Of a DNA stretch of 64,000 nt, positions 14,616 through 34,115 are shown piece by piece. How positions within the stretch are numbered: position 1 is the stretch's first letter; each line of letters opens with the position of its first letter. The translations under genes were made by a program, and so were the position numbers. Source of the DNA: Streptomyces sp. NBC_00224 (GTDB lineage: Bacteria; Actinomycetota; Actinomycetes; Streptomycetales; Streptomycetaceae); assembly GCF_041435195.1 (NCBI RefSeq), contig NZ_CP108106.1, forward strand, positions 2,418,001 through 2,482,000, read 5' to 3'. Under the pieces are notes generated by a model. It saw only the letters and a list, made by a program, of their open reading frames with translations, made no database searches and was not told the origin of the DNA.

Positions 14616-14740
14616 CGATGGCTTGGCCTGGACCAGCCGTGACGGAGGAGTGCCTCTATCCGCAGTCAGCTTCTTGATCGCCAGTGACACCGAGTGATTG
14701 CTTGCATGAACACATTGGAGTGTTCAGCGCTGGCAGCTGC

Positions 14741-15224: not shown

Positions 15225-15754
15225 AAGAACTCAGTGTCTGGCTGCGGGGTGTGCGAGATGGGCATGTAGCAGGGCTGAGCTATCGGCTACTTAAATAGCA
15301 ATGGGCGTGCCGCCCAGTTGGTGAGTGCCTACCGGGTCGGAGCAGGAGTGGGCTGCGAGATGCGTGCGACTGGCCACCTCGCGCCTTCGCTGGTTGTAGC
15401 GAATCAGGCTCCGCGCAGCCATTCGCGACACATGTCATGAGCTGCGAGAACACTGAAAAGGCGTTTGAGATTCGCGCTGTAGCGTTTCGGGGTGCCGCAT
15501 ATCATCAGACCTGACCTGCGGCGACGGAATTTCCCACACATCCCTGGATGCTGCGGCACCCGCTGCCTGCGAATTGTGCCGCGGCCACGCCGGTGATGTG
15601 GCTGATTACCGAGCTAAGCGTCACGGCAGCCTGGCTTGACCTACTGCAGCTGAGGCTACGACGACGGCCGACTTGGGGTGCCCCGCGCTTACAAGGCAAG
15701 CCGGCTGGTTCCCATATGCTGATGGGTGCGGGTCCTCTGAAGTGACGGTCGGGA
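15225..15754. other. Intergenic stretch without recognisable gene
   Basis: No gene-like frame is visible in these 530 bases between two transposase remnants. The composition is less G/C-biased than the flanking genes, as expected of scrambled insertion-sequence DNA. Confidence 0.5.
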
Positions 15755-16400
15755 TCAAGCTGTGAGGCTGTAGTTCTGCTGGTCGGGGCCGGGGTAGAGG
15801 CGTTGATGTTCACGGGCAGTGTGGAAGCCCCAGTAGTTGTCGAAGTCGCCGTTCGTGATCAGTGCGCGGAGTTGGAGGACGGCTTCGGCGCCGTCGAGTC
15901 CCCAGCGGGCGCCGGTGATGTCGAGGCGATCGGTGGTCAGGTGACGGCAGGCGCCTTCGACGGCGCCGGTGGCGATCGGCCAGCCGGCCGCGAGGGGGTG
16001 TCGTAGTGAAGCTGATCGAGGTGGCCGGCGAGGTAGCGGTGGCAGGGAGCCGTTCGGCTGTAGCCTGGGCTGTCATCTCGGTGGCGGCGCGTTCGGCGTG
16101 TCCGGCGAGGATCGCGGTGAGTTTGTCCGCGGCCCAGGTCTCGGCCGCACGGCTGCCGGGCGGATGAAAAGCATGCGCCGCTGCCCAGCAGTACTCGGCG
16201 ACATGGACGAAGTCGAGCAGGACGTTGAGGCGGATGCCGCGTCGGGCGGCTTCGGCTTGGATCAGGTCAAGTTGGTGGCGGGCGCCGTCAACAACTGACG
16301 ATCCAGTCCCGTAGCTGCTGCGGGTCGCGGGCCTCGGCCTGGACGAAGGCGTGGGCGACGACCTGTTCCGGAGGACGGATTACCGAGACGGTGCACCATG
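15755..16400 (-). pseudogene. ISKra4-like transposase remnant
   Basis: Translating the minus strand gives a good C-terminus: [57 protein letters not shown] and [11 protein letters not shown], ending at TGA 15755-15757. Further upstream, in a different frame, are NVLLDFVHVAEYCWAAAHAF, AAETWAADKLTAILAGHAER and [14 protein letters not shown]. The VEGACRHL...[13 protein letters not shown]...NGDFD..W signature is typical of ISKra4-type transposases. At least two frameshifts and a missing N-terminal half make it non-functional. Confidence 0.85.
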
Positions 16401-16508: not shown

Positions 16509-19500
16509 TTAGGGGTGGACGATCACTTGGAGGACGCTATTGGCAGTGTCCATCGCGTACACCTCGGCGCAGGCGAGCAGATGAAGTTGGTCCTCGGAAA
16601 CGCGGGCTTTGGAGACACCGGGCTGAACGATGGTGATAGTGAACTTGGGTTCCAGGAGCGGAGCGCGCTGGGCGAGTTCGTAGAGTGTCTGGTCCGTCCC
16701 CTTTTCCAGTCCAGACCGGCCTTGGTCACGGCGGTGACCTTCGCGGCGGATCAGGTTGTTGAAGAGACGACCTGGGCGGTGCCTCCATTTAGTGGATTTG
16801 TGGACCTGGCCGCACACTTCGTACAGATCGGCGACTCGGGCACCGGGGACGTCTCCGTGCGCGTACTTGCAGTGGACGAGGTTTACATGGAGCTGGTTGC
16901 CTTCGATGCGGGCGGCGACGATGTCTGCGACTTCGCCGGCGCCGTCGTCGTCGATGACGAGGTCCCAGTCGGCCTCGCCGAGGAGGTGCTGGATGGTCTG
17001 TGCCTGGATGGAAGTGGGGTCACGGTCGGCGCCCTGGGTCTCCTTGCGCAGGTTGATGCCCGTCCAGTCGATGGTCAGGAGCCGTTCGGGGCTGAATGGC
17101 GCAACGGTTCCTGCTGGGCGAATGAGGAGCATGTCCGGTTCCAGGATCGCTTCGTCCTCGAAGAGAATCCGTAGACCGTGCTGGTTCAAGTATTCGCCGA
17201 ATGGCTGGGCTTGGCGGCTCATCGCGACTGTTGGTTCGGGACCATCGCACGTGAAATTGATGCGGCCGCCCGCGATGGTGATCTGGCATTCGACGCTCCA
17301 GTGCGGTGTGTGAAGGGTGAAGCCGATCGGGCCTTCACGGGTGAACGTGGTGATGGTGAGGTCGGTGTCGATCACTGGCCAGCTGAAGTTGTCGCGCTTG
17401 ATTTCGACGCTCTCGTTGATGCCGAGGAAGAACTGGATCGGCCACTCTAGGGCCAGCGGGACGAGCTCAGGACGTTCCGCGACTTCGGTGGGGATGATGA
17501 AACCCTTGAGGACGTCTGCAGGATCGACAGTCTCGTCGGTGAGTTTGGCGCCGACTTCATCGCACCAGTCGACCCAGCGTTTGAGTGTGTGTGCCACGCC
17601 GTAGTTCCAGACGCGCCCCTTCAGCGAGGCACCTACGTTGACGCGCTCGCCGCCCTCGTAGCCATTGACGAAAATGTTGGTCTGGCTCTTGTTGCGTCTT
17701 GCTGCCTCGGGATAGTCGAGTAGGACGTCGGCGCCGACCGCGAGCTGAAAGCGGCGGCTGCGGCTGCGGGCGTCGAGGGTCCCTACGTTGGTCGGCACGC
17801 ACCGCCGGATCTTCGCCATGATCCGGTAGACGACTGACCCCTTGATCCGGATGGCATCCGGGCCAGCCACCGCTTGGGCAAGATCTTCATGGATGCTGCT
17901 GGTGTTGGAGCTGTTGATGTAGAGCAGTCCGTGTGTCTTGTCCCAGTACAGGACGTACAGGTCGTGCGAGACGTCCTCCAGGCTTTTCACTGTGCCCCAG
18001 GCGACGGGTTTTCGCTCGCGTGCCACGAGCCAGGCGACCCGGTCTCGTTCGTTGATCGCAACCGGGTGGGTGAGCAGCCGGTCGCCGAAGAACGGCGCGA
18101 GCGCTTCGGGCTTCCACTGCAGAGTGCTGGTGCGATAGACGACGGTGCTCATCCGCGGTGCGATGTTCCGGAGTGAGACCCCGTCGGGCAGGCTTGAGAA
18201 GGCCTCTTCGAAGTCGCTGAGTTCTTCCTGCTCGCCGACCGCGTGCGCGGAGAGGATCTCAATTACGTCGTTCCAGTCGGCGTCCTCGGCATACAGCTTC
18301 TTCAAGTTCTCATCGAACTGAGTCTCGGTGCGGTTGACGACGACGGTCGCCGTCCCGATCGAGGTGCCGGCTACTCGTGTGAACCTGCCGATGAACTGCA
18401 GCGTGATGCCCAAGCTCTTGTGCTGGTCATGGATTGCCGCGATCTTGAGCGAGGGCAGATCGAAGCCTTCACCGAGCATGTCGACACAGACGACGATCTT
18501 GCTGCTCCGGTCGTGGAGCGCTCCCAGCGCGGCTTTGAGGTCTGTCCTACGGCCTTTGCTGTGCAGGATGACAGGGTTCAGGTCGGGAGCGAGCTCCTGG
18601 TAGAGCGGCAGGACATCCTCGGCGCGGCCGATCCGTTTGACCCGAGCCATGAGTAGGTGGTCGAAGCCGACAGTCAGATCCTCGCGGAGAAGTTCGACGG
18701 CCCGCTGCGCGATGGCGCGGTCCGGGTCAAACAGGTCGACCACGGGAGCGTATGTGATCTTTGAGAAGTAGCCCTGCTGATATGCGTCTTTGAGTGAGAA
18801 GCTGAACACGAATCGGCCGCCGAGGTCGGCGCCGTCGCTGCGGAACGGGGTGGCCGTGAACTGGACAACGCGCTTCCCGCCGAAATGATCGCGAATCTCA
18901 CGCCAAGTCTGCGAGGTCACATGATGGGCCTCATCGACGAACAAATGGGTGCACGCCCCAATCAGGGCATCCCGTGCTTCTGGGGAGAAGTGCTGCATGG
19001 CGGACGGTGTCGCCACGATCACATTGCAGTACGCCGCGAACTCGTGAGCCAGGACGGGATCTTGGATCCCGCGTTTGACCCGCCCGACGATCGGCTTGAG
19101 TGCCGACCCGGTTACGGTGCCGAAGTCCTGCAGCAGCCCCAGTCCTTCGAACTTGGTCGCGACCTGGTCCCGCAAGGCGTCGGAAGGAACGATAACCAGC
19201 AGGCGCTCAACGCTCCCGGCCACCAACAAGGCCACCATGGTCTCGGTCTTGCCCGTCCCTGTGGGCATGACGACCGTAGCGGGCTCAGGCCGCCTTGACG
19301 CCCAGTGCCCAAGAACTGCGTGTACGGCTCCAAGTTGCGGCTCCCGCAAGCCAGCCAAGCCCCGCTGCAAGTCCTCTTGGCGGAACCGGAAGGCTTCATC
19401 GAACGAGGCATGCACCTGGGCTGGGTCGACACGGTCGGCAGCACCATTCGGAGCCACGAGGCGCCAGGCTATGTTGCCTTCAATATCACAATGCCTGAGC

Positions 19501-19535
19501 CGGCCGGAGGGATCCACTCTCATGATGCCTCGCAC
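16509..19535 (-). CDS. SF2 DEAH-type helicase with C-terminal nuclease-like domain
   Basis: The 1008-residue protein starts with a superfamily 2 helicase core: REPQLGAV (64-71), Walker A PTGTGKT (91-97), DEAHH (201-205), TATPF (227-231), GEGFDLPSL and the arginine-finger motif QFIGRFTR. The middle 450 residues are unassigned. The C-terminal 155 contain D862-D864, a D871 in GEVADIVAARIEG and H888-C-K890 in VNLVHCKYAHG, a PD-(D/E)XK-like pattern. Helicase-nuclease fusions of this form are frequent single-gene anti-phage factors, acting on invading DNA in the cytosol. It is flanked on both sides by transposase remnants and lies a few kb from other defence-like genes. It is full-length and intact. 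The exact defence type cannot be assigned from sequence alone. Confidence 0.75.
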   Translation of the reverse strand: MRGIMRVDPSGRLRHCDIEGNIAWRLVAPNGAADRVDPAQVHASFDEAFRFRQEDLQRGLAGLREPQLGAVHAVLGHWASRRPEPATVVMPTGTGKTETMVALLVAGSVERLLVIVPSDALRDQVATKFEGLGLLQDFGTVTGSALKPIVGRVKRGIQDPVLAHEFAAYCNVIVATPSAMQHFSPEARDALIGACTHLFVDEAHHVTSQTWREIRDHFGGKRVVQFTATPFRSDGADLGGRFVFSFSLKDAYQQGYFSKITYAPVVDLFDPDRAIAQRAVELLREDLTVGFDHLLMARVKRIGRAEDVLPLYQELAPDLNPVILHSKGRRTDLKAALGALHDRSSKIVVCVDMLGEGFDLPSLKIAAIHDQHKSLGITLQFIGRFTRVAGTSIGTATVVVNRTETQFDENLKKLYAEDADWNDVIEILSAHAVGEQEELSDFEEAFSSLPDGVSLRNIAPRMSTVVYRTSTLQWKPEALAPFFGDRLLTHPVAINERDRVAWLVARERKPVAWGTVKSLEDVSHDLYVLYWDKTHGLLYINSSNTSSIHEDLAQAVAGPDAIRIKGSVVYRIMAKIRRCVPTNVGTLDARSRSRRFQLAVGADVLLDYPEAARRNKSQTNIFVNGYEGGERVNVGASLKGRVWNYGVAHTLKRWVDWCDEVGAKLTDETVDPADVLKGFIIPTEVAERPELVPLALEWPIQFFLGINESVEIKRDNFSWPVIDTDLTITTFTREGPIGFTLHTPHWSVECQITIAGGRINFTCDGPEPTVAMSRQAQPFGEYLNQHGLRILFEDEAILEPDMLLIRPAGTVAPFSPERLLTIDWTGINLRKETQGADRDPTSIQAQTIQHLLGEADWDLVIDDDGAGEVADIVAARIEGNQLHVNLVHCKYAHGDVPGARVADLYEVCGQVHKSTKWRHRPGRLFNNLIRREGHRRDQGRSGLEKGTDQTLYELAQRAPLLEPKFTITIVQPGVSKARVSEDQLHLLACAEVYAMDTANSVLQVIVHP

Positions 19536-20026: not shown

Positions 20027-21710
20027 GTGTCGCGGATTGCTGCTCGTCGTGCTTTTGACCCGGCTCGGATCGGGCGCTTCCGGGTGATCGGGGCGCTGGG
20101 CGCGGGTGGGATGGGCGCCGTGTACGCCGCGGTCGGGGAGCGGAGCGAGAGCGGGTAGCGGTGACGCCGTGCACGCCGGGCAGGCCGCGGATGACCAGTT
20201 CCGGGCCCGATTCCGGCGCGAGGTGCAAGTTCTGCGGAGGGTGTCGGGTCCGTGTCTGGTGCCGCTGCTGGAGGCCGATCCCGAGGCGGACATCCCGTGG
20301 CTGGCGACCGCCTACGTACCCGGCTCGACGCTCGGAGAGCACACGGCGGTGCACGGGCCGCTGGCCGGGATCCAGCTGCACCTGTTCGCCGCGGGGACGG
20401 CCGGGGCGCTCGCGGCCGTGCACGCCGCCGGGGTGGTCCACCGCGACCTGACCCGCGAATGTGATCCTGGCCCCGGACGGACCGCGGGTACTGGACTTCG
20501 GTATCGCCCACGTCGCCGACGGCACCGCGGTCACCCGCACCGGCCTGCTCACCGGGACCCCGGGCTGGCTGAGCCCCGAGTACTACCGTGGCAGCACCGC
20601 CGGGCCGCCAGGGGCGTCTATGCCTGGGGCGCACTGCTCGCCTTCGCAGCCACCGGCCGCCACCCCTTCGGCACCGGCAACGCCGAGGCCGTCGCCTTCC
20701 GCGTCCTGAACGCGGAGCCGGACCTCGACGGCGTCCCCGACGACATGCTCAACCTGGTGACGGCGTGCCTCGCCAAAGACCCGGACCACCGGCCGCCGTC
20801 CGCTGGCGTGGCACAGGAGACCGCCGAGCTGCTCGGCAAGCAGGCGACCCAGGTCCTCGGGGATGTCCACGACCGGCCAACCGAGGTCCCGAACCTGATC
20901 GCAGAGCAGTGGCACCCCCCGACCGTCGAAGACCCCGCCTGGTCGGCTGCCGCGATACGCCCTCCCTACAGGCGCGCCCGGCTCATCGTCGTCGCGGCCA
21001 CCGTGTTCGCCGCGGCCGCCACAGGCACCTGGTTCGCGCTGGCCCCCGGCCACGCCCCAGCGCGCGCCACCCACTCCCCGCAGTCGGCCGCGGCCCGTTC
21101 CACCCCTGGCGCCACACCGGCTGCGACCACGTCATCCCTCGCCCGCACAGCCGTCACCGAGTCACAAACCCCGACCGCCGCGGCGTCGTCCGCGACGCAG
21201 ACCCAGGTGGTCACCCTCAGCCCCTGGTCCCCAGGCGGCACCCCGGCAACCGGCATCACCATGACCGACCGGGCCAGCGGCTCCTGCTTCGGGACCGCCG
21301 AATCCACGATGCGCACGGACGCCTGGCGCTGCACCGCCGGCGACCGGATCCTCGACCCGTGCTTCTCCCCGGACTCCGATCCCGCAGACACCAGCGCGCT
21401 GTGCCTGGACGGAGCTCCCGGCCGCATGGTCGAACTGTCGGTCCCCGAGGGCTTTCCCGGCAACAACAACTACATGCCGGGCGGAACTGACATCGAATCG
21501 ATCATCTTTGCCCTGGCCGACGGCGCCCGCTGCTCGTTCAGCGGCGGAGGAACCCTGACGCTGGCGGGACAGCGCCTGAAATACGGCTGCGACAACGGCG
21601 GCTACCTGTACGGCTACCCGAACAAGACAGCCGCCGTGTGGACCATCTCCTACACCGCCCCCGGCAGCGGATCCAGCGTCTCTACATCGATCACCACCGT
21701 CTACCAGTAG
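20027..21710 (+). pseudogene. Frameshifted membrane Ser/Thr protein kinase
   Basis: Three reading frames must be joined. From GTG 20027: ARIGRFRVIGALGAGGMGAV, the glycine-rich loop. After a break near 20150: DDQFRARFRREVQVLRRVSG through VHAAGVVHRDLTR. After a second break near 20455: NVILAPDGPRVLDFGIAHVA, the HRD-N/DFG region. After a third near 20615: VYAWGALLAFAATGRHPF and the rest of the C-lobe. A membrane span at about 20980-21050 and a roughly 200-residue extracellular part with four cysteines finish at TAG 21710. The breaks hit the VAVK lysine and the catalytic loop, so no active kinase can be made. The extracellular part stays open, which suggests the decay is recent, or that sequencing errors are involved. 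Confidence 0.8.
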
Positions 21711-21846: not shown

Positions 21847-23250
21847 TCAACGCAGCATCGTGGCCGGGAGCTCCAATTGCAGCAGGTGAGGCCGCGGGGT
21901 CTGATCGTTGCCACGGATGTCGGTCAGGAGGTACACCATGTCGTCGGGCCCGTGGGCGAATCCGGTGATCTGGGTGGTGTTGGGCAGACGGAGCAACAAC
22001 GTAGAGGTGTGGTCGTGGATGTCGACGGCGTAGACGGCCTTCTCGAATCCCTGGGGGCTTCGGCCTGCCAGGAGCACCGTGTGGTCGCCTACGGCGAGCG
22101 CGGCATCGGGAGTGAGGGGTGCTGAATCGGCCCAGCGGTCCGCGGGGCAGCGCCAGTTGTGCTTACAATCGGTAGTGACGCTGTGGCCGCCCCCACTGAT
22201 GTAGAGGGATCCGGCGCCAGTGAGAACGGCTTGATGGACCCAACCGGGGAAGTCGACCTCGCAGGTAACGCCGTCGGGAAAGTCCGCTGCAAGCTGGGTG
22301 AGCGTGTGGCCACCGTGGCCTTCGGCCCTACGCGGTCCGGACGAGGCGAACACCCACGCAGTGTTGTCGGGCCCGGGTAGGAGCTGTCGGCTGCCCACGA
22401 ACCCGCCGCTGGCGACATCGACGCTGCTGTCCTTGCAGAAGCGCAACGCCGCCTCCTCGACCAGCACGACCATGCTGCCGTCGGCCTCGGAGAGGGCCGG
22501 TCCGTGGCAGAAGGACGGGGCGGTCGTCCACATGCTGGCGCCACTGTCAGGAGCGACCTGCAGCACGCCTTCACGAGTCGTCCACAGCAGACGCCCGTCC
22601 GCTGTGGACGCCATGCCGTCCACTTTTCCAGCCGCCCACGGCCCGCCGGAAGTTAGCACGCTGGAGACGGTCAGCCCGGCCTCGGGCCAGGCGGGAAAGC
22701 CTTCGATCGGCTGGTCGACCGGACGCAGAGCGGGCAGCGGCTCGCCTGCTGCGGCCGGGGTGTCGAGGAGGCCGGCCAGAAGCACGTAGGCACCGCCCTG
22801 GCGGCCGGTCACCGACAGCAGCTCGTGGAAGAGACGGTCCGCGCTGAACAGGCCGGCGACCATCGCCTCCACGTGCTGCCGGTCCATCAGGAGGATCTGC
22901 GCGTGGTACTCGGCCTTGTCATAGACGGCCTTGGTGTATCCCGACATGGACACGAAGAAGCCTTGAACACCGGGACGTCGGGTTTCCAGCCGGCCCTTGA
23001 GCTTGGCGATCGCCGTCTCATCGACCCTCTCGCGTTCCCACTTGGCCTCCAGGATGCAGCTGGTGTAGCCGAGGGTGAAATGGACATCGATTTCGTCCCG
23101 CCCGTGAAGACCGCGCAGATCACTGCGCGCGTCATGCAGGTTGCCGCGGCGCAGCAAGTCGGCAAGGAAGGCGTTGAACTGCCTACCACGGGCCTGTTCC
23201 TGCCCCGGGGCCGCGTGGTGGAGTGCGCGGTAGGTGCTGATCTGGTCCAT
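21847..23250 (-). CDS. PD-(D/E)XK nuclease fused to beta-propeller-like domain
   Basis: The product has 467 residues. Residues 1-130 form a restriction-endonuclease-type domain: D55 in DEIDVHF, E68-A-K70 in CILEAKWER, then a helix and VQGFFVSMSGYTKAV, as in Mrr-like catalytic domains. Residues about 190-460 hold repeated short motifs of four-strand blades (GMASTADGRLLWTTREGVL, SLYISGGGH, AVGDHTVLLAGRS, GFAHGPDDMVYLLTD), a probable beta-propeller. Such domains usually recognise protein or ligands, so it may sense a phage product and gate the nuclease. The gene lies 55 bp after the STAND NTPase on the same strand and is probably in its operon. I know of no named family with exactly this architecture. 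Confidence 0.7.
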   Translation of the reverse strand: MDQISTYRALHHAAPGQEQARGRQFNAFLADLLRRGNLHDARSDLRGLHGRDEIDVHFTLGYTSCILEAKWERERVDETAIAKLKGRLETRRPGVQGFFVSMSGYTKAVYDKAEYHAQILLMDRQHVEAMVAGLFSADRLFHELLSVTGRQGGAYVLLAGLLDTPAAAGEPLPALRPVDQPIEGFPAWPEAGLTVSSVLTSGGPWAAGKVDGMASTADGRLLWTTREGVLQVAPDSGASMWTTAPSFCHGPALSEADGSMVVLVEEAALRFCKDSSVDVASGGFVGSRQLLPGPDNTAWVFASSGPRRAEGHGGHTLTQLAADFPDGVTCEVDFPGWVHQAVLTGAGSLYISGGGHSVTTDCKHNWRCPADRWADSAPLTPDAALAVGDHTVLLAGRSPQGFEKAVYAVDIHDHTSTLLLRLPNTTQITGFAHGPDDMVYLLTDIRGNDQTPRPHLLQLELPATMLR

Positions 23251-23305
23251 GGGGTATCAGGGTAGGACGCCGTGGGTCCCGGGAAGACACTACTGGTCGA
23301 GCCTG

Positions 23306-26300
23306 TCAAGACTTCCATGGCACCAGGCCAGCGGCGAGGAGACGGCGGGCTGCCGTGAATTTGAGACGGCTATAGAACGCCTGGTGGCTGGTGAACGCTT
23401 CGTTCCGCCGGGCCGGACTGCCGAGGTCGAAGCCGAAACCGTACAGCACCAGGACTCGCCGATGTCTGTCTGCGGCGGCGAGCCACTGCTGTTGTGGCCG
23501 GATGCGGGCGCGGGCACGTAGGACTCCGGCCGAGTCTTTGAGAGTGAGTTGGCCTCGGTGGCGGCGCAGTTGCCAGCCGGCCGGCGTGGGAACGGTGAAG
23601 GCTTCGGGGACCACCAGCCGGAAGCCTGAGCTGCAGATTCGATGGACCTGCAACTCCATGCTGAGGCCGTCGGCCGTGCCGATGGCCAGCATGTGTGTGG
23701 GCTCTATGACGGCCACAGCAATGGTCCTGTCCCTGCCGACTGTGCCAGCGGTTGGAAGAGCAGCGAAGCCGAGGATGTCAAAGGGCGCCTCGGAGCTCAG
23801 AGCCAAGCGGATGCCAACATCGGCTCGTTCCAGGACGCGGGCCAAATTGGGATCCCCTTGCCATCCTGGCGCCAGCGTCTGCAGCAGTTTCTCGCCGTGC
23901 ACTTGGAAATTCTCGTGCACAGTCCTGGCGGCGATGTCACGCAGTCGGCCAATGAGATGGTGGAGAAGATCCTCCCAGGGGGTTTCCTCGTTCGTCTCCT
24001 TGTCGAGTGGGTGGGTCCCGAGGTCGTGCATCAGCGTCTCGAAGGCTGAAGTGTCATTGCGGCTGGCTGCCGCCACGGCCTTGAGCAATGTGTACCGAGT
24101 GCGTTCGACGAGCGGCACTTGCCTGCTAAGGGTATCCACGTCCATCTCGCTGACAATGCGGTTCAGCAGGGCAGCCGCGGCTTCGTCTCCCGCCACAACC
24201 CAGGCGAGCGCGCAGGTCAGACCCACGTTGTGCACGAGCATCTGTTCCGCAAAGCGATGCAAGGAGCGAGGTCGGGTGCGGGCAAGGAAGCTTTCGAACT
24301 CCGCCTCGGCCTCTTGCCAGCGCCTCTGAACAGTCAGGGCTTCGATCAGGATCCGCTGCACTTCCGCGGAATTGCCGGTCCAGTCTTCCCCGTAAGATGC
24401 CAGCGCCTCCCGCGCGGCGCGTTCTGCTGCCTCGGTTTGCCCTGCTTCGAAGAGGCGCCCGACAGCCCGTGCCTGTGCCATCTCCGCGACGGTGGAAGGC
24501 GTGGGGAGCAGGCCGCTCAGAGTGGTGAAGGAGCGGTGCAGGTGTACGAGACGCTCGTTGCGCGCATGCCGCCGAAGTAGCTCTTCCAGGATCGCTGCAG
24601 CTTCGGCTGTGAGCACGGCAGCGGCGTTCCGTGCAGGTTCTTCCTGTCGGATGTGTTCGATGTAAGCGAGCACGGGGGTGAGCAGCCGAAGAGCCTGGTC
24701 GGCTTCTCCGGGCAGCTCCGCGATCTGGTGAGCGTGGGCCAACTGAATCCGTGTCTGTGCCTGAAGGACCTCATTCGGCTCTTCGATCTCATCGAGCCAG
24801 GCCAGCTCAAGCGTCAGCAGCTCTATGGCTTCGCGGACCTCTCCCTGGAGTTTCTTGAATCCTGCAAGGTTCCCGAGCAGAACGGCCGTGTGGTTGTCCT
24901 TCACATCCCTGCGGCGGGCGTGCGCCGCGAGGGCAGCCGCGTGCTGAGCCAATTCCCAGCTTCGGTCGGCATGTGAAACCTCCATGGAGACGTACAGCCA
25001 GCGGTCGGTGTGGAAGGCGCATTGGGAGAGTGCTTCTTTGCTGCCAGGCGTCTGTTCGTAGTACTGGCGGAGAATCTCTTGGAGAACGGCATTCATCGAG
25101 ACCGTGTCGTCGATGCCGACAGGGGACTTGCTGGACAGCGGCGCCAGAGGCTCTGTGTATCGGACGAACGAGACCTTTACCAGGGCGCGGAAGATCTCTC
25201 GGAGTGGCACGTCGCTTTCGTCGACGGCCGTAGGCAATGGAGTCGTCGGGACGTCCTCCGGGGAGAAGAAGGCGCTGACGGCGGCCAGATGGATGGGGAT
25301 GCGCTGCGGGGCGAAGTTCGTCAGGTAGCCGAGGACTTCTCGCACTTGCCGGGACAGCTGTTGGTCGCCCGCCAGAACATGGACCAGTCGGGCCAGGCTC
25401 AAGTCCACCGCGGCGACCAGGGTGCGCGGGTAGCCGTGCGGTATGGAGAAGCGGTCGTCTAGTGCCCGTGACAGCAGTGCATGGCGGTACTGGTCGATCC
25501 TGTCGACGGGGATGGCGCAGCTCCGGAGGTAGCCGCAGGCCAGTTCGATCGCAAGTGGCCACCCATCGAGGGCGTCTGCCAGCGTGGCCAGATCTTGCCG
25601 GTGGCGTTCCGCGTCACTGTCTGTCAAGGCAAGTCGACGTGTCATCAGTTCACAGGCATGGTCGGTGCTCATCCTGTCTACCGATACTCGGTGCCTTGCC
25701 CACGTCCATCCGGCATTGTCGATGGACGTGATCAGTACGTCCCCGCGGCCGAGTCGGGGGATCCAGGGGGACACGATGTCGGCGAAGGCATCGTCGAAAA
25801 CGATCAGCCAACGCCCGGGTAAGGCGCTGAGTAACTCGTGCGCCTGCTCCCGGAGGTGGTCCGCGCTGCGTGCAGACTGATCGTCGAACTGTCCGTGCAG
25901 GTGCCCGCACAGGCGTCGGAACGATGCCGTCAGGGATTCGGTCGTGGAGGCGTCAGCCCAGAAGATGAGGTCGTACCTGTCCGCGTGCTCAGCGACGTAC
26001 GCCGCCGCTGTGCTGGACTTGCCGATGCCCGACAAGCCGGTGACCACGCAGCTCTGAACACCGCCCGGAGCACTGTCTGCCGGAGTCAGTGCGTCTGCGA
26101 CTTTTGCGAGGAGCGCTGGACGGACGATGTCAGGTACGGGAGTGACAGGTCCATAGACCGCGGCCCAGTCCTTACGGCCCAGCGCGCGGATCAAGACGTC
26201 GTCTTCCACCAGGACCGCATTTGTGAAGTCTGAGATGCTCCAGAATGCCTCCTGCGGAGTGGCAGCACGGCGCAGGACCTCGGCCGTGAGATATCCCAGA

Positions 26301-26902
26301 ATCAACCCGGCCGACCTCTCGCCCAGGCCGGCTCGACGCTGCCTACGCCGCTGCCGCAGCTGATCGTGGAGATCGCGGCGCAGGACGGCCTCGTCCCGGT
26401 TGTCGAAGACGATTCGGCACCTTCCTAGGCGCTCGACCTCTTCGGCAGACAGTGCCTGTAAGCGAGCACTAGCTCGGGGAGCCTGGCCGAGTAACTGAGC
26501 CACGGAGAAACGGAGTTCTTCCGGATCCTGACTCTGGACGGCAAGGGCTGCGGCGAGTGCACGGCATTTGGTGTCCGGCATCGCGGTCGTGATCAGCTCG
26601 TAAGCCTTAGAGTCTGACTTGGTGACCATCTCGGCCAGTACTGCGAAGGCTTCGGGCGCACTGCTCCGTCGGCCAGGAGCTGCGCTCTTCACTTGCGCGG
26701 CGACCAGGCATTCGCCCTGTCGGTCGACCAAGTCAAAGTCGACGACGTCAACAGCAGACGCCGTGCTGTCGGGGGCCGGGCCCTCGATTCTGCATCCATC
26801 GACATCGGGACGGTCCCAGCCCGCCAAGAGAGCTTCCAATGTACGCAGGTATTGATACTGAAAGCCGCGCGCGGCCACTCGGCCACCATCCAAGTTGCTC
26901 AC
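23306..26902 (-). CDS. STAND NTPase with N-terminal Cap4-like nuclease and TPR-like repeats
   Basis: The product has 1198 residues from GTG 26902 (in-frame GTG 26932 is possible; 26902 has AAGGGGGC close by). Residues 1-180 resemble Cap4/DUF4297-type dsDNA endonucleases: GGRVAARGFQYQYLRTLEAL, a VVDFDLVD strand, then ECLVAAQVKS with Q70/K72. A nucleotide-binding STAND/NB-ARC core follows: Walker A GLSGIGKSS (289-297), Walker B WLIVFDDA (365-372) and the sensor GWPLAI (448-453). The remaining 600 residues are helical repeats resembling TPRs, with a C-terminal beta-rich cap. Nuclease-STAND-repeat proteins are typical of Avs-type immune sensors, which oligomerise on phage-protein binding and cut DNA. 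This is the core of the candidate system here. Confidence 0.8.
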   Translation of the reverse strand: MSNLDGGRVAARGFQYQYLRTLEALLAGWDRPDVDGCRIEGPAPDSTASAVDVVDFDLVDRQGECLVAAQVKSAAPGRRSSAPEAFAVLAEMVTKSDSKAYELITTAMPDTKCRALAAALAVQSQDPEELRFSVAQLLGQAPRASARLQALSAEEVERLGRCRIVFDNRDEAVLRRDLHDQLRQRRRQRRAGLGERSAGLILGYLTAEVLRRAATPQEAFWSISDFTNAVLVEDDVLIRALGRKDWAAVYGPVTPVPDIVRPALLAKVADALTPADSAPGGVQSCVVTGLSGIGKSSTAAAYVAEHADRYDLIFWADASTTESLTASFRRLCGHLHGQFDDQSARSADHLREQAHELLSALPGRWLIVFDDAFADIVSPWIPRLGRGDVLITSIDNAGWTWARHRVSVDRMSTDHACELMTRRLALTDSDAERHRQDLATLADALDGWPLAIELACGYLRSCAIPVDRIDQYRHALLSRALDDRFSIPHGYPRTLVAAVDLSLARLVHVLAGDQQLSRQVREVLGYLTNFAPQRIPIHLAAVSAFFSPEDVPTTPLPTAVDESDVPLREIFRALVKVSFVRYTEPLAPLSSKSPVGIDDTVSMNAVLQEILRQYYEQTPGSKEALSQCAFHTDRWLYVSMEVSHADRSWELAQHAAALAAHARRRDVKDNHTAVLLGNLAGFKKLQGEVREAIELLTLELAWLDEIEEPNEVLQAQTRIQLAHAHQIAELPGEADQALRLLTPVLAYIEHIRQEEPARNAAAVLTAEAAAILEELLRRHARNERLVHLHRSFTTLSGLLPTPSTVAEMAQARAVGRLFEAGQTEAAERAAREALASYGEDWTGNSAEVQRILIEALTVQRRWQEAEAEFESFLARTRPRSLHRFAEQMLVHNVGLTCALAWVVAGDEAAAALLNRIVSEMDVDTLSRQVPLVERTRYTLLKAVAAASRNDTSAFETLMHDLGTHPLDKETNEETPWEDLLHHLIGRLRDIAARTVHENFQVHGEKLLQTLAPGWQGDPNLARVLERADVGIRLALSSEAPFDILGFAALPTAGTVGRDRTIAVAVIEPTHMLAIGTADGLSMELQVHRICSSGFRLVVPEAFTVPTPAGWQLRRHRGQLTLKDSAGVLRARARIRPQQQWLAAADRHRRVLVLYGFGFDLGSPARRNEAFTSHQAFYSRLKFTAARRLLAAGLVPWKS

Positions 26903-27376
26903 CAACCATGCCCCCTTCAGTGCGGTGAACACTCTCTGAGCGTAGCCAGCACGTCTGACAATAGGCGCGGCGGAGTCTGTCGGCTCGGGCGCGGACCCGT
27001 TTCGGTGCTCGGGCCGACGTAACCGAGCTTGTCGATCAGTGCGACGAGCGCTGGCGTCAGATCGTGGTGCGCAACTGCTACCGCCAGCCCAGGAAGGTCG
27101 CTACCGCGGCCAGCGTCGTCCGGCGGTAGTTGATACCAGCTGTTGGGCTGACTTCTGGTTGTTCTGTCCAACGCCCCGGATTGAATGATCTGGCACCAAT
27201 CGTCCCCTCCGGTGCCTTCGCTGATCGGGCAGAGAGCGGGGGCTTCGAGGGCGTTCGTGTCGGCCTGTAGGGGAGGGGAGCCCCCGCAGACCGGCATGTT
27301 CCGGGTTGTGCGTCTGAATGTCAGTGGTCACCTCTATCGTCGTCATCAGTACGTTCAGGGGGCTTCGGGGGGAACA
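26903..27376. promoter_or_regulatory. Divergent intergenic region, STAND and ATPase genes
   Basis: This 470-base gap must hold the promoters of both large divergent genes. I see no perfect dyad. A minus-strand frame (26917 to about 27171) encodes a protein-like tail (AVAVAHHDLTPALVALIDKL) ending 14 bases before the STAND GTG, which could be a tiny upstream gene; its start is unclear and support weak. Confidence 0.4.
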
Positions 27377-30300
27377 GTGACCGACGGGCAGGGGCGGGCG
27401 AGGCGGTCCATGGGCGCTGGCGGCTCGGCCAGGCGGAAGCAGGTCGTGGCGATGGCGGTCATGGAGGCCGAGGGATGCCTCGCCGACCTCAAGCGCGGAC
27501 GACGTGCTGCCCTCGAGATCAAAGAGGTCACCGAGCGGATGCTGTCGCCCGAGTACAAGGGGCGCGTGCTCGTGGAACTGCTCCAGAACGCCCATGACGC
27601 GCACCCCGCGCGGGACGGCGTCGGCCGCGTCGAGATCATGCTTGACGAGGACGAGGGCGAACACGGCGTCCTGTACGTGGCGAACGGTGGCAGGCCCCTC
27701 GCATACAAGAACTTCGAGGCGCTGTGCAGCATCGGCCTGTCGAGCAAGCGCCCCGAAGAGGGCATTGGCCACAAGGGCGTCGGCTTCAAGAGCGTTCTGC
27801 AACTCACCGCCGCCCCGGAGCTGTACAGCGTCGTGCGAGCCACGTCCAAGACCTTCGACGGGTTCTGTTTCCGTTTCGCCCGGGACGAGGACTTCGACTG
27901 GCTGACGGACCAGGTCGCGCCCGGCCGCCCGGAGCCAGCCGGTCAACTGCGCGCGAACCTGTCGTCGTTGAAGGTCCCGGTGCCGGTGGACGACGTCCCG
28001 GCCGCAGTGCTGCCCTTCCGCCGCCGTGGACTGGTGACCGTGGTCCGGCTCCCGCTGCGGAACGCCGACGCGAAGCAGGAAGCAGTACGCCAGCTGCGCG
28101 AACTGACCGACGACGGGGTTCCGTTCGAGCTCTTCCTGGACCGTCTCGGCAAGGTTTCAGTGACGCATCGCGTGGGCGGCCGGGGGCGCCCGAGCGTCTA
28201 CACACGCAAGGTGGATTTGCTCTTCACCTCGCGCGGCCTGAAGGTCCAGCAGATCACACTGCGCCGTCACACACGCCTGATCATGGTGACGGCCGCAGTG
28301 GACCGTGAGCGCGCGCACGAGGCCATCGCCGCTGGCGTCGAATCCGGACCGCTGACGGATGGCTGGCAGGCTCTAGGACACTCGGCAGTGGTCAGCGTGG
28401 CGGTGCCCGCGGGCGAGCCACTGGAGCGCGGGAGGCTGTACACCTTCCTGCCCATGGGCGCACAGCCGGCGTGCCCGGTCCGCGGATTCCTCAACGCGCC
28501 GTTCCACACAGACGTGAGCCGACGCATCATGGCGGAGGCCACGCAGTGGAACGACCTGCTGCTCGACACCGCGGCCGAGGCCTGCGCTCAGACGGCCGTG
28601 CTGGTCGACGAGGGACGCGTCACGATGCCCGCGGGTGCTCTGGTCGACCTGATGTGCTGGGAGCACGATCAGATGCGGCGCCTGGAGCTGGCCTTCAAGG
28701 CACAGGGCCGTGAGTTCGATGACGTGCCGTTCATGCCGGTACTGCACCCTGCGGGCACACGTATCTCGTACCGGCACGGTTATTTGTGGCGCGGACCCGA
28801 TCGGGCCCGCGTGTTCACACCGCAGGCCGTTGCCGCTGCCGGGGCTCAGCAGATGATCGACCCGCGGCTCCATTCTCTGCGCGCCGAGCGACTGGTTGCG
28901 CTGGGTGCGGTTCGTGCGCTGGGGCTCCTCCCGCCCACCTCCGTGCTCGCCGGCTGGGCGGAGAGCGTCGCCTCGTACCTCTCCGAGGGGGAGTTCGACG
29001 CAGGCACGTGGGCGGACTATTACCACGACCTTTCGGTCTGCTTCGCCCGCAACGGCGAGGAACTGAAGGGGAGGGAAATCGTCCTCACGGTTGACGGGAA
29101 GCGGGCTCCGGCCGGCGATCCCGGGTTGTTCTTCCGCCGTTCGGATGGGCCGTCGGCTGCACTGCCTGCCCTGCCACGCGGACTCGCGAAGAGCATCTCC
29201 TTCGTCCATACGGAGATCGCCTGGACGGGAAGGCGAACCAGTCGGCGCTCCCGAGGTCGTACCTGGCTGGAGGAACAGGGGCTGGTGCGCGACTACAGTT
29301 CGCAAGCCCTCCTGGAGGTGCTGGGTGACGCCATGCGTAAGGTCCGTGAGGACGACGAGGCCCTGCGCGAACACCTCCTGTTTGCCTGTGACCTGTGGGC
29401 GTCGTCCCTGGACCGGCACAACAAGCGGCCTGTGATTAAGGGGCTGTTGGTGCCGGGGCGCAAGGGTTGGGTGCTCGCGACGGAGGCCATGTTCGGAGAA
29501 GGCTGGTCGGGCGGGCACGGTGGAATCGACCGGACACTGGCCCGCTTCCTCGACTGCACCGAGGCTGCCTCTCGTACCCTGGTCGCCGCCGCCGACCGGG
29601 TCGTCCGCCCCGCCCAGGACATCTGTGCCGGTACCCGCACCGACACACAGATCCTGCGACGCTTCCTCGAACAGCAGGGGGTTCGCCACGGCCTGCTACC
29701 GACCTACGTGCCCACGCTTCAGGCGGTGAAGGGGCAGCATCTCAACCATCCATCCGTCTTTCCCGGCCTGTGGGCCCTGAACCTGGCCCCGGACGAGCGG
29801 GTCCAATGGCAAGCGACGGCCCAGAGCTGGCCCAAGCGCCGCGACGATCTCTTCCAGACTGTCGAGTACCGCCCGACCCGCAGGAGGGTGGCAATGCTCC
29901 CCGGCCAGCGGGAGTACGCCGCGTTCGACGAGGAGAGTCGCCGACTCTACGCCGAACTGATCGTTGACGGTTTAGACAACTGGGCTCCCGAGGTACTCGA
30001 GTTCCGCTTCGCGGGCGGCTCGGATCAGAAGGGCACACCATGGCCCACCCCGCTGGCCGCCTTCCTGAGCCGAGCGCCGTGGATTCCCCAGACGGGCGAC
30101 GACGAAGATACCCCCGCTTTCACCACGGCCGGCCAGGCGTGGTGGTGGGCTTCGGCGGAGGCGCCGCCCGCCTACCGGACCGTTGCCTCTGCCGCGCTAC
30201 GCAGACGGCAGTCAGACCGCGTGCTCAAACGCCTGGAACTGCTCGGCGTACGCCGATGGGACGATGCCGGGACCGCCGCGGACCGGCTCCGCCACCTGCC

Positions 30301-32680
30301 CGCCCTCCTCCGCCGTATGCCCCGGCTACGGCAAGGGCGCCTCGGGCATCTGCTGCAGCGGGCGTACGAACAGGCCTGGGCGGACCTCCTTCCTCCGGAC
30401 GGGTTCGGCAGCGGGTGGCGGTCCGGGATCCTCCCCGAACTCCTTGTGAGCCGGGCCGGGACGCTGGATGTCCTGGCAGCCGAGTCCGAGCCAGAGCCGG
30501 TCTACGTGGCTGACATCCGCGGCACCCAGCAGCGGAGGCTGCTCGACCAGGCACCCCTCCCCGTCCTACCGGTCGACGACCGGGCTCTGGGCCAGCGCGT
30601 CCACGAGCACCTGGAGGCGCAGGGCCGTTTCGTGATCCGGACGACGAGCGAGGCGGACCTCGACGTCCGGGTCGACCAGCTGCCGATCGCCAACGCACCC
30701 CGAGTACCGCTGTTCACCCTGGCCGGGCCCTGGCTGGAGACCCTCATGGTCGCGCTGGTCGAGTTCGACGAGGAGCGGTCCTCCCGAGCCACGGTCCCCG
30801 CCGCGCGCCGAATAAGGCAACGGCTTCGATCCTGTGGCGTCGTCGTGGCGCGGACCGCGGTCACTCGTATCGCCGGGCATGCCCTCGACGCCTCCGGCGA
30901 TGACCGCTCCCTCCTGCACGACGATCCGGGGGAACCTCTCCTCGTCGTGGTGTGCGCGCGGCAGCGCTCCGACTGGCATGCGCTGGAGGTCGCCGCGACG
31001 GCCCTGAGTACTCTGATCGGCGCCCCGTACTTGAGCACGGCGGTGCAGCTGGCGTTCATCGCACTGAACCGGCTGGGCCGGGCCGTCGCAGACGTCACAG
31101 AGGGGGACATCGCCTCCGTGCTGGCCATCCCGCGCCAGCGCCTGGAGGCGGTGCTCGCCGACCGTGCCTCGATCCGCTCCGGCAGCGCCCGACTAGTCCC
31201 CCTGCTTGCCTGCGTCGACCTCGCCCTCGCCGAGGAACTGCAACGCGGACAGGAGACCTTGCACGATCGCGGCGAGCTCCACGACTGGCTGGTCGCCCGG
31301 CTCGATGTTGAGCGCGCCGACCACTTGCTGGGGCTCGTGGAGGAGAACGACTGGCGGCGGATGCTGTCCGCGCTCGGGGTGCCTCTGGCCGAGGCCAATC
31401 GCGCTTGGCAGACACTGGGTCTGCCGACCGTCGACAACGCGGAGACCCACCGACGCCAGTTCCAGGCATGGCTGCAGCAGAACCGGGCCCGCGCGGCCGA
31501 CCGTGTCCGAGACGCCTACGTGACCACGCACAAGGCGGGCGCTCCCCTCACGGAGTACATCCGGCTCCGCTCGCTGCCCGGACTGGAGCCGGACCCCCGG
31601 TGGGGACTCGAACATTGGGACCTTCCTGTTTACCTCCTCGACGCCCATGCCGAGGAATGGACGGTCATGCACCTGCCCCCGCCGCTGGCACGGCAGCACC
31701 ACCCGCGCCCGGTGGCTGAGATCCACGAGGACTGCGTCGACACCATCCACGCGCGCTTCCCCCGCCTGCGTGTCCGGATGGAAGCCTGGCTGAACCGCCA
31801 GGGCCGCGAGGCCCCTTCTCTGCCGTCGGCCACCGAGGTCGCGTCGGCGATGGACGCTGAGGGCCTGCTCGACTTCGAGCCGATCGGCACCCGTACGCTC
31901 ATCGCCTGGCTCCAGACCCACGGTCACTGGCCCGCCGGCATGCCCGCCACGGACCGGGCGGCCGACCTCGGCCTTCACGAACCCCCGCCCCTTCCACCGA
32001 GCCCTCCCGCTGGTAGCATCCCGCTCCCCGCCCCGCCGTTGGGCCCGTCACTTCTCTTGAACGGCCGTGCCCTACCGATCGGCCCCGACCATCTGCGCGA
32101 CCTCGCCCGACAGGTCGCCGCCGACCTCACCCCCGGCCAACTCGCCGCTGTCCCACAGCCCGGGACACCGTCGGCACCCGCCCTCCCGAGGCAACGAACC
32201 ACCTCTGCGGTCGCCGGCCGCGGCGGGGGATACCGGGCCGTCCCCCGGGACCCTCAGAGGGACAGAGCCGTCGGACTCGCCGGGGAGGTGGCCGTAGCCA
32301 CCTGGCTGGAGCAGCACTACGGTGTCCCCCGCGAAGAATCCTGGAAGTCCGGGCTACGCCAGCACGTCCTCGCCGACGGCTCGGGCGACGACAGCCTCGG
32401 CTACGACTTCCTGATCCACGATGGCGATCGCACCCTCCTGTACGAGGTGAAGGCCTCGACCGGGGACCGGGGCGAGTTCGAACTCGGCGAGTCCGAAGTC
32501 GAACGAGCCAGTCACCTCCGCCCGGACGAGACCTACACCATCGTCTACGTCACCCACGTCCTCGACCGCACCCACCGACGTATAACGCCCCTCCCCAACC
32601 CGTTCAGCGCTCCCGGCCTCGCCGGTTACCGCCTCGTCGGCACGGCTATGCGCCTGCGGTTCGAACTACCGCCGGGGTGA
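27377..32680 (+). CDS. Giant sacsin/Hsp90-like GHKL ATPase with C-terminal DUF3883 domain
   Basis: The protein has about 1767 residues from GTG 27377 (GGGGGGAA just upstream; an in-frame ATG at 27185 is a poorer start). The N-terminal GHKL ATPase has the N-box ELLQNAHDA (67-75), VANGGRPL in the D-x-G-x-G position, CSIGLSSKRPEEG, then GIGHKGVGFKSVL (129-141), as in sacsin-type Hsp90-like domains. A large middle section of about 1400 residues has no recognised domain. The C-terminal 136 residues match DUF3883: E1637 in GLAGEVA, D1677 in GYDFLIH, and E1690-V-K1692 in YEVKAST, a PD-(D/E)XK arrangement. Bacterial sacsin-like/DUF3883 giants are associated with defence islands. It is divergent from the STAND gene. 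Confidence 0.8.
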   Translation: MTDGQGRARRSMGAGGSARRKQVVAMAVMEAEGCLADLKRGRRAALEIKEVTERMLSPEYKGRVLVELLQNAHDAHPARDGVGRVEIMLDEDEGEHGVLYVANGGRPLAYKNFEALCSIGLSSKRPEEGIGHKGVGFKSVLQLTAAPELYSVVRATSKTFDGFCFRFARDEDFDWLTDQVAPGRPEPAGQLRANLSSLKVPVPVDDVPAAVLPFRRRGLVTVVRLPLRNADAKQEAVRQLRELTDDGVPFELFLDRLGKVSVTHRVGGRGRPSVYTRKVDLLFTSRGLKVQQITLRRHTRLIMVTAAVDRERAHEAIAAGVESGPLTDGWQALGHSAVVSVAVPAGEPLERGRLYTFLPMGAQPACPVRGFLNAPFHTDVSRRIMAEATQWNDLLLDTAAEACAQTAVLVDEGRVTMPAGALVDLMCWEHDQMRRLELAFKAQGREFDDVPFMPVLHPAGTRISYRHGYLWRGPDRARVFTPQAVAAAGAQQMIDPRLHSLRAERLVALGAVRALGLLPPTSVLAGWAESVASYLSEGEFDAGTWADYYHDLSVCFARNGEELKGREIVLTVDGKRAPAGDPGLFFRRSDGPSAALPALPRGLAKSISFVHTEIAWTGRRTSRRSRGRTWLEEQGLVRDYSSQALLEVLGDAMRKVREDDEALREHLLFACDLWASSLDRHNKRPVIKGLLVPGRKGWVLATEAMFGEGWSGGHGGIDRTLARFLDCTEAASRTLVAAADRVVRPAQDICAGTRTDTQILRRFLEQQGVRHGLLPTYVPTLQAVKGQHLNHPSVFPGLWALNLAPDERVQWQATAQSWPKRRDDLFQTVEYRPTRRRVAMLPGQREYAAFDEESRRLYAELIVDGLDNWAPEVLEFRFAGGSDQKGTPWPTPLAAFLSRAPWIPQTGDDEDTPAFTTAGQAWWWASAEAPPAYRTVASAALRRRQSDRVLKRLELLGVRRWDDAGTAADRLRHLPALLRRMPRLRQGRLGHLLQRAYEQAWADLLPPDGFGSGWRSGILPELLVSRAGTLDVLAAESEPEPVYVADIRGTQQRRLLDQAPLPVLPVDDRALGQRVHEHLEAQGRFVIRTTSEADLDVRVDQLPIANAPRVPLFTLAGPWLETLMVALVEFDEERSSRATVPAARRIRQRLRSCGVVVARTAVTRIAGHALDASGDDRSLLHDDPGEPLLVVVCARQRSDWHALEVAATALSTLIGAPYLSTAVQLAFIALNRLGRAVADVTEGDIASVLAIPRQRLEAVLADRASIRSGSARLVPLLACVDLALAEELQRGQETLHDRGELHDWLVARLDVERADHLLGLVEENDWRRMLSALGVPLAEANRAWQTLGLPTVDNAETHRRQFQAWLQQNRARAADRVRDAYVTTHKAGAPLTEYIRLRSLPGLEPDPRWGLEHWDLPVYLLDAHAEEWTVMHLPPPLARQHHPRPVAEIHEDCVDTIHARFPRLRVRMEAWLNRQGREAPSLPSATEVASAMDAEGLLDFEPIGTRTLIAWLQTHGHWPAGMPATDRAADLGLHEPPPLPPSPPAGSIPLPAPPLGPSLLLNGRALPIGPDHLRDLARQVAADLTPGQLAAVPQPGTPSAPALPRQRTTSAVAGRGGGYRAVPRDPQRDRAVGLAGEVAVATWLEQHYGVPREESWKSGLRQHVLADGSGDDSLGYDFLIHDGDRTLLYEVKASTGDRGEFELGESEVERASHLRPDETYTIVYVTHVLDRTHRRITPLPNPFSAPGLAGYRLVGTAMRLRFELPPG

Positions 32681-32699
32681 CCGGAACCTTCCCCGTAGG

Positions 32700-33043
32700 C
32701 AATCGAGGTCGAACTGCCCCCATGCCAGCACATGCCTGTCGACAACGGGTAGGGAGCGCGAGCCCTCGGGAGCTGCCAGCCCGTCGGGAGTCCAGAACCT
32801 GGTTGGAGAAGGCTTCGAAGATCTCTCTCCACCGGGCGATCCGCGTGTCCAGCCCGTGAGGTGTGATCTCCACTGCCCGCACTCGTCGGTCAGACCCGCA
32901 GCAGCCTTGCGTACGGCAAGACCCTTGCGCTCCAGATTATCCACGATGCGCATGGGCCCTGCCTGGTACGACCCCGTCGCCGGCACGGGGCGCAAGTACA
33001 TCCCAGCAATAATTGCATGCGCATACTCTCGGGGAGTGATCAT
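32700..33043 (-). pseudogene. Possible frameshifted winged-helix-like gene
   Basis: From ATG 33043 the minus strand reads MITPREYAHAIIAGMYLRPV, then MRIVDNLERKGLAVRKAAAG, LTDE. A plausible continuation, VRAVEITPHGLDTRIARWRE then IFEAFSNQ, is one base out of frame from about 32883. The joined product looks like a small helix-turn-helix-type protein with a wing (RAVEITPHGLD). The frameshift and the island-edge position fit decay after integration. Weak evidence: no clear family. Confidence 0.3.
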
Positions 33044-33118
33044 GCGGCTTGCGGGAACCTCAACATCGATTAGCCCTGATACGCCTGGTCAAGGGATCTC
33101 GTGAACGACCCACCACTT

Positions 33119-33145
33119 GAAAACCCCAGCTGAGCTGGGGTTTTC
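33119..33145. terminator. Perfect 13-bp stem hairpin terminator
   Basis: GAAAACCCCAGCT and AGCTGGGGTTTTC are perfect reverse complements around a single base, followed by TTGTTTTG. The A/T-rich ends make a textbook intrinsic terminator that can work in both directions. It marks the change from accessory to core-like DNA. Confidence 0.8.
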
Positions 33146-33152
33146 TTGTTTT

Positions 33153-34115
33153 GTGAGACATAGAGCCAGGATCCCGGCCGCCCCGCTCCCCCAGCGCGAC
33201 GGCATCGACCCGGTGCGGGTGCGGCTGCCCGTGGACCCGGACGGGGTCTGGGGGACGGTCCGGGAGTATCTGGTCGAGCGGTTCCGGGGCGCCATCGGGG
33301 CCGCGCGGGTGGAGGAGATGGTGCGCGGCGGGCGGTTCCTGACCGCCGACGGGCCCGTGGACGACGAGCTGGCGTACCGGCCGGGGATGTACGTCTGGTT
33401 CCACCGGGACTTCGCCCCCGAGGTACCCGTGCCGTTCGGGATCGGGATCGTCCACCGCGACGAGCGGATCGTGATCGCGGACAAGCCGCACTTCCTGGCC
33501 ACCACGCCCCGGGGCCGGCACATCACCGAGACCGCCGTCGCCCGGCTGCGGCGCGAGCTCGGCCTGCCCGCGCTCCAGCCCGCGCACCGCCTCGACCGGC
33601 TGACCGCCGGTCTCGCCCTGTTCGTCGTGCGCCCCGAGGACCGGGGCGCGTACCAGAGCCTGTTCGCCGAGCGGCGGGTGCGCAAGGAGTACGAGGCGGT
33701 CGCCCCGTACGACGCGGGCGTGGCGCTGCCGGTGACCGTGCGCAGCCGGATCGTCAAGGAGCGCGGGGTGATCGCCGCGCGTGAGGAGGCGGGCGAGCCG
33801 AACGCCGAGAGCCGGATCGAGCTGATCGGGCACCGGGGCGGGCTCGGCCGCTACCGGCTGCTTCCGGCGACCGGGCGCACCCATCAGCTGCGGGTCCATA
33901 TGAACGGCCTGGGGCTGCCGATCCTCAACGACCCGGTCTATCCGGTGGTGGCCGAGGAGCCCGACCCGGACGACTTCACCCGTCCTCTGCAACTGCTGGC
34001 GAAGGTACTGGAGTTCACGGATCCGGTGGACGGGCGGGAGCGGAGGTTCGAGAGCGGGCTGCGGCTCGCCGCGTGGTATCCGGACGATGGCGATCGCGAT
34101 ACATCGGACCAATAG
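33153..34115 (+). CDS. RluA-family pseudouridine synthase
   Basis: The product of 320 residues is an RluA-type pseudouridine synthase: a short N-terminal S4-like region (VREYLVERFRGAIGAARVEE), then IVIADKPHFLATTP, the catalytic HRLDRLTAGL with the essential aspartate, and a C-terminal ATGRTHQLRVHMNGLGLPIL. It isomerises uridine to pseudouridine in rRNA or tRNA in the cytoplasm; which positions cannot be told. Start GTG 33153 is used because an ATG at 33117 would place the start within the terminator stem. It appears to be a single gene, with the fucose operon beginning 70 bases further. Confidence 0.9.
   Translation: MRHRARIPAAPLPQRDGIDPVRVRLPVDPDGVWGTVREYLVERFRGAIGAARVEEMVRGGRFLTADGPVDDELAYRPGMYVWFHRDFAPEVPVPFGIGIVHRDERIVIADKPHFLATTPRGRHITETAVARLRRELGLPALQPAHRLDRLTAGLALFVVRPEDRGAYQSLFAERRVRKEYEAVAPYDAGVALPVTVRSRIVKERGVIAAREEAGEPNAESRIELIGHRGGLGRYRLLPATGRTHQLRVHMNGLGLPILNDPVYPVVAEEPDPDDFTRPLQLLAKVLEFTDPVDGRERRFESGLRLAAWYPDDGDRDTSDQ

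Follow-up and report, generated by a model that had tools for sequence, protein, structure and literature searches.

Three neighboring genes in the chromosome of Streptomyces sp. NBC_00224, contained in a stretch of 64,000 nucleotides (contig NZ_CP108106.1, positions 2,418,001 to 2,482,000; hereafter, the window), are probably three independent single-gene defense or candidate defense units that lie together at a variable site to the left of an rluA-like gene. Judging from sequence and modeled structure, one of these units is known (gene 3, the Tiamat protein TmtA), one represents a new family of NLR-like nucleases (gene 2), and one is an uncommon combination of an Mrr-type nuclease with a beta-propeller (gene 1; Table 1). 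Read in this way, a chance cluster of defense genes does not enter the record as a new three-part system, gene 3 is placed in Tiamat, and gene 2, a compact NLR-like nuclease family without a PADLOC name, stands out as the best lead. The natural arrangements in which TmtA or gene 2 occurs alone are clean starting points for single-gene work.

The three families are not linked in the other genomes examined

In the original prediction, made from this sequence, the three genes were presented as a single candidate defense module. In a genuine system of this kind, the propeller nuclease would cooperate with both the NLR-like nuclease and TmtA. The adjacency of the genes in the window and the presence of a nuclease-type domain in each of the proteins speak for such a system, but no second instance of it was found. 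Neither gene 1 nor gene 3 was detected by tblastn at E 1e-3 in any of the 37 loci that contain gene 2 (32 distinct neighborhoods, five being cases of a genome seen twice; L131 and L138 are two copies in one genome), the searched flanks measuring up to ~10 kb, or less where a contig ended. The same type of search detected neither gene 1 nor gene 2 in 13 TmtA loci and neither gene 2 nor gene 3 in 11 gene-1 loci. The two shared TmtA neighborhoods that were seen (L066/L073) belong to near relatives.

The families are also far apart when they are present in one genome. In the complete chromosome of S. lavendulae, gene 2 (at ~7.11 Mb) and TmtA (at ~1.42 Mb) are 5.7 Mb apart; in genome G163, TmtA and gene 2 are on separate contigs; and Actinospica possesses all three families on three contigs. 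Among the 199 genomes of the genus, including that of the window strain, TmtA scoring above 900 bits is found in 13, a gene-2 relative matching over most of the protein (~residues 15-930 or more) in 3; a gene-1 relative is present in 8. Across GTDB species, a scan yielded 24 gene-2 loci; the respective genomes encode full-length TmtA in three cases (G163 among them) and a partial one in another, along with strong gene-1 relatives in two cases and weak ones, matching in the nuclease part only, in two.

Furthermore, the homologous DNA stops at single genes. The block in common with G171 consists of TmtA and its upstream region, and the commonality of S. lavendulae with the window is limited to the TmtA block, such that genes 1 and 2 lie outside in both cases. 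In G171, a fragment matching window positions 20430-20678 (80% identity), which is part of the decayed kinase gene, is found 32 bp before the TmtA block. Thus, the kinase-TmtA neighborhood exists without the 6.6 kb bearing genes 1 and 2, which were either gained in the window strain or lost in G171. Taken together, the lack of linkage in the other loci examined, the single-gene DNA blocks and the 5.7 Mb separation indicate that the three genes are probably independent units, and we reject the three-gene module as highly improbable. The original prediction had itself named rare co-occurrence of the families as the observation that would tell against it, and no linkage was seen in any other locus examined; its domain readings turned out to be right and the candidate defense role is reasonable, whereas the single module is not supported.

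A more limited alternative is that genes 1 and 2 comprise a two-gene operon, combining the NLR-like nuclease with the propeller nuclease, beside an unrelated TmtA. Indeed, these genes are on the same strand and are separated by 55 bp (23251-23305); however, a gene-1 relative is found in none of the 37 gene-2 loci and gene 2 in none of the 11 gene-1 loci, and the closest gene-2 DNA, that of Streptomyces sp. STR69 (L077), reaches the gene-2 stop codon and ends there, without gene 1. Relatives of both genes stand alone and the arrangement is not conserved, all of which makes an operon of this kind improbable.

Several observations weigh against the interpretation of the cluster as three independent units with these family assignments. 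The position of genes 1 and 2 on one strand, with the short gap between them, makes co-transcription and a local partnership possible in this strain. Many of the searched flanks are cut off by a contig edge or by the 10 kb limit, and the 24 gene-2 loci include two short fragments. TmtA is present in 3 of the 24 gene-2 genomes vs. 12 of the 198 other genomes of the genus (raw counts), so a mild tendency of TmtA and gene 2 to share genomes is possible. With regard to family assignment, the LmuA and Cap4 sequence profiles match the relatives of gene 2 weakly (LmuA in 11 of 21, best 4.5e-8; Cap4 in 6 of 17, best 0.0036) and do not match gene 2 of the window itself. A profile of the gene-2 nuclease compared with the sequences of solved structures gave only matches at chance level; therefore, the nuclease assignment rests on the fold, the motif and the weak profile matches.

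Table 1. Genes and homologous DNA blocks at the variable site (window positions; aa, amino acids; ORF, open reading frame)
Feature	Position	Strand	Length	Description	Source
Gene 1	21847..23250	-	467 aa	Mrr-type nuclease (~residues 18-130, D55...E68-x-K70), then beta-propeller (~188-465)	ORF list, Pfam, AlphaFold, structural comparison
Gene 2	23306..26902	-	longest ORF to 26932, 1208 aa	Cap4/LmuA-type nuclease, NB-ARC STAND ATPase, TPRs, C-terminal alpha/beta region	
Gene 3	27377..32680	+	longest ORF from 27185, 1831 aa	TmtA: N-terminal sacsin-like GHKL ATPase, C-terminal DUF3883/NOV_C nuclease-like domain	
Decayed (frame-shifted) AfsK-like protein-kinase gene	20106..21710	+		Left border of cluster	
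rluA-like pseudouridine synthase gene	33117..34115	+		Conserved right border of variable site	
TmtA DNA block, relative G171 (L075)	27286..32815	+		88% identity; genes 1 and 2 outside block	
TmtA DNA block, S. lavendulae (L112)	27307-32720	+		83% identity; genes 1 and 2 outside block	
Gene-2 DNA block, Streptomyces sp. STR69 (L077)	23306..26959	-		73% identity; gene 1 outside block	

Gene starts and nuclease motifs

The likely start of gene 2 is the GTG at 26902, which follows AAGGGGG and is close to where the relatives begin, and that of gene 3 is the GTG at 27377, where the alignment of its closest relatives begins. With these starts, genes 2 and 3 are ~470 bp apart and the lysines of genes 1, 2 and 3 are K70, K72 and K1692, respectively (K70, K82 and K1756 in the longest-ORF numbering). 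These are exactly the residues named in the original prediction, and its gene positions and 55 bp gap agree with the ORF list. The nuclease-type domain that had been read in each gene is likewise borne out by domain matches and conserved motifs, in agreement with the AlphaFold models and structural comparison, with the limit that the nuclease part of gene 1 matched no solved structure, its match list being filled by the propeller.

Gene 3 encodes full-length TmtA

The PADLOC profile TmtA (PDLC03971) matches residues 82-1827 of gene 3 with 1697.5 bits, spanning profile positions 12-1779 of 1782, and, by this match, gene 3 is full-length TmtA, which by itself makes up the known Tiamat system. 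The N-terminal part matches the NCBIfam sacsin N-terminal ATPase model P_loop_sacsin (4.6e-22) and, below the cut-off, Pfam SACS (3.3e-6), and the C-terminal part matches Pfam NOV_C/DUF3883, the NO VEIN C-terminal domain, above the cut-off (1.8e-5). In all 11 aligned TmtA proteins, ten of which are 26-81% identical to that of the window, N71, D74, N103, G131, G134, G136, D1677 and E1690-V-K1692 are invariant. The full-length profile match, the sacsin-like ATPase, the DUF3883 C terminus and the occurrence as a lone gene are all features in common with Tiamat; we noticed no difference, and an anti-phage role is predicted for the window copy. The initial statement that no named system is made of all three genes may hold for the trio but does not apply to gene 3, which by itself is TmtA of Tiamat.

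A table of PMC12926258 lists the mechanism of Tiamat as unknown, a passage of PMC10740426 calls it poorly understood, and DUF3883 is described as a novel restriction endonuclease domain in a part of PMC3710099. We propose, considering this scheme neither more nor less probable than its negation, that an infection cue would act on TmtA through its sacsin-like GHKL ATPase and its long middle region, and would thereby license the C-terminal DUF3883 nuclease.

At 1e-10, the TmtA profile is matched in 191 of the 199 genomes of the genus, in most of them only within the N-terminal ATPase region, by another protein encoded in frames of ~1050-1700 aa, so that counting profile matches without a length check would overstate the presence of Tiamat in Streptomyces. 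In G171 (L075) and G109 (L076), TmtA is split into two frames. Relatives of TmtA are also found in three IMG/VR viral contigs (L159-L161; 28-29% identical along most of the protein) and in 25 plasmid records, in 3 of which more than 80% of the query is covered. In two plasmid TmtA neighborhoods that were inspected, no annotated NB-ARC or Mrr gene is located nearby; one of them includes an AAA-family ATPase.

Gene 2 and a family of NLR-like nucleases

The AlphaFold model and structural comparison indicate that gene 2 consists of an N-terminal effector nuclease of the Cap4/LmuA-type fold, a central NB-ARC STAND ATPase whose nearest counterparts are Apaf-1 and plant NRC proteins, and a C-terminal sensor of TPR repeats, i.e., the order of effector, STAND ATPase and repeat sensor that is typical of NLR-like antiviral STAND proteins. 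The additional C-terminal alpha/beta region is confined to one subclade. The 21 aligned gene-2 proteins do not differ from one another in the Q-V-K motif, in its acidic residues or in the Walker A residues; 4 of the 24 GTDB-species loci were excluded from this alignment.

No PADLOC model matches gene 2 of the window at E up to 1. The 21 gene-2 relatives, taken together, match seven PADLOC models at E up to 0.1, with no Avs among them, and therefore we do not file gene 2 as Avs (Avs proteins are treated in a part of PMC10286901); it is also far smaller than 8dgc, the chain of which has 2028 residues, and its ATPase is nearest to Apaf-1 and the plant NRC proteins. Unlike the LmuA nuclease of Lamassu and the Cap4/DUF4297-type nucleases (covered in a section of PMC10586767), the nuclease of gene 2 is fused to NB-ARC and TPRs, and, in the window locus, gene 2 adjoins gene 1 and TmtA without an LmuB-like SMC gene in between.

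Elsewhere, the surroundings of gene 2 are, as judged from profile matches, rich in known defense genes. When 123 of the 125 proteins called within 6 kb in 22 loci were pooled, they matched 279 PADLOC families at <=1e-10, a count inflated by redundant PADLOC models; the 25 of these families that were listed include PtuA (1.4e-301), DrmA (4.6e-287), Cas3e (2.2e-173), PtuB (2.7e-167) and a CBASS cyclase (2.1e-166). In the control, 121 proteins from eight rluA neighborhoods matched 5 PADLOC families, the best being a candidate family at 5e-137.

These neighborhoods bear on the possibility that gene 2 is not a defense gene at all but an NB-ARC/TPR regulator of development or peptide signaling, as other Streptomyces NB-ARC-TPR proteins may be. 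Against the NB-ARC part, the FxSxx_TPR model scores 146 bits (below the cut-off of 300), and the genome carries three other partial NB-ARC matches, both compatible with a regulator. Against it stand, apart from the defense-rich surroundings, the invariance of the nuclease-type residues in the aligned proteins and the patchy spread of the family (12 of the 297 genomes in the family survey); hence, we consider the regulatory role unlikely.

On the basis of the architecture, we hypothesize that gene 2 acts as an NLR-like receptor, which we regard as somewhat more probable than its negation: the TPRs and the C-terminal part would bind a protein made by the phage, the NB-ARC domains would then oligomerize in their ATP-bound state, and the clustered Cap4/LmuA-type nucleases would cut DNA indiscriminately, ending the infection and the cell together. 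The broader proposal, to which we assign about even chances, is that the gene-2 family comprises uncataloged one-gene immune receptors of Actinomycetota, in which a Cap4/LmuA-type DNase, an Apaf-1-like NB-ARC switch, a TPR sensor and a subclade-specific C-terminal alpha/beta region that may set phage specificity would form an apoptosome-like DNA-degrading machine located in defense islands. We refer to this family as the new part of the cluster in the sense that PADLOC does not name it, with no claim that it is unpublished.

No gene-2 relatives were found in phage records or in viral contigs, and of the 15 plasmid records with such a relative, none covers more than 80% of the query. In G720, gene-2 relatives are located near both ends of one contig (L131 and L138) and have most of their surroundings in common, which suggests terminal inverted repeats.

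Gene 1, an Mrr-type nuclease on a propeller

Gene 1 matches Pfam Mrr_cat with 40 bits (5e-10; cut-off 21) and by sequence contains the D...E-x-K motif, as in Mrr-type restriction nucleases; the propeller is supported by the AlphaFold model and structural comparison. The same propeller is found in a family of actinobacterial kinases of ~930-1080 aa, a protein type from which gene 1 differs in having no kinase. We rejected the idea that gene 1 is a cut-off piece of such a propeller-kinase: in the kinase-type relatives the E-x-K motif is lost (8 of 8 aligned rows), and the motif is retained in forms from Actinospica (L109, 529 aa, 34%, without a kinase by length and alignment) and Catenulispora (L110, with a match spanning residues 4-360). 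Gene 1 therefore seems to be a distinct form. When 396 genomes of the phylum were surveyed with gene 1 at E 1e-8, only the match of the window itself was returned, and no relatives were found in viral contigs; 10 plasmid records contain one, covering more than 80% of the query in a single case. The propeller would provide recognition or scaffolding for the Mrr-type nuclease, the weakest of the proposed mechanisms and a doubtful one.

A Streptomyces family (L059-L063, L065, L113, L114), also present on linear plasmids, combines a nuclease-like domain without the catalytic motif, the propeller and a Ser/Thr kinase; in G007 (L062), the adjoining gene fuses an AbiJ_NTD3 domain to a related kinase.

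The variable site beside rluA

The right flank, comprising rluA and the genes beyond it, is conserved in the three relatives whose rluA is most similar, and none of the left-side proteins of the window were found in the 15-16 kb before rluA in these relatives; therefore, we consider this a variable site. No tRNA is present in the window, leaving a tRNA insertion site unsupported. The decayed accessory DNA with transposon remnants that had been described here was recovered in part, as the variable left flank, the AfsK-like kinase gene, in which the frame shift falls in the catalytic region, and transposase-like remnants at 14700-16400, spotted by eye in the DNA. Positions 16509-19535 encode a 1008-aa ResIII/DEAD-type helicase, weakly similar to PbeA, RadD and restriction helicases, which may be another defense gene.
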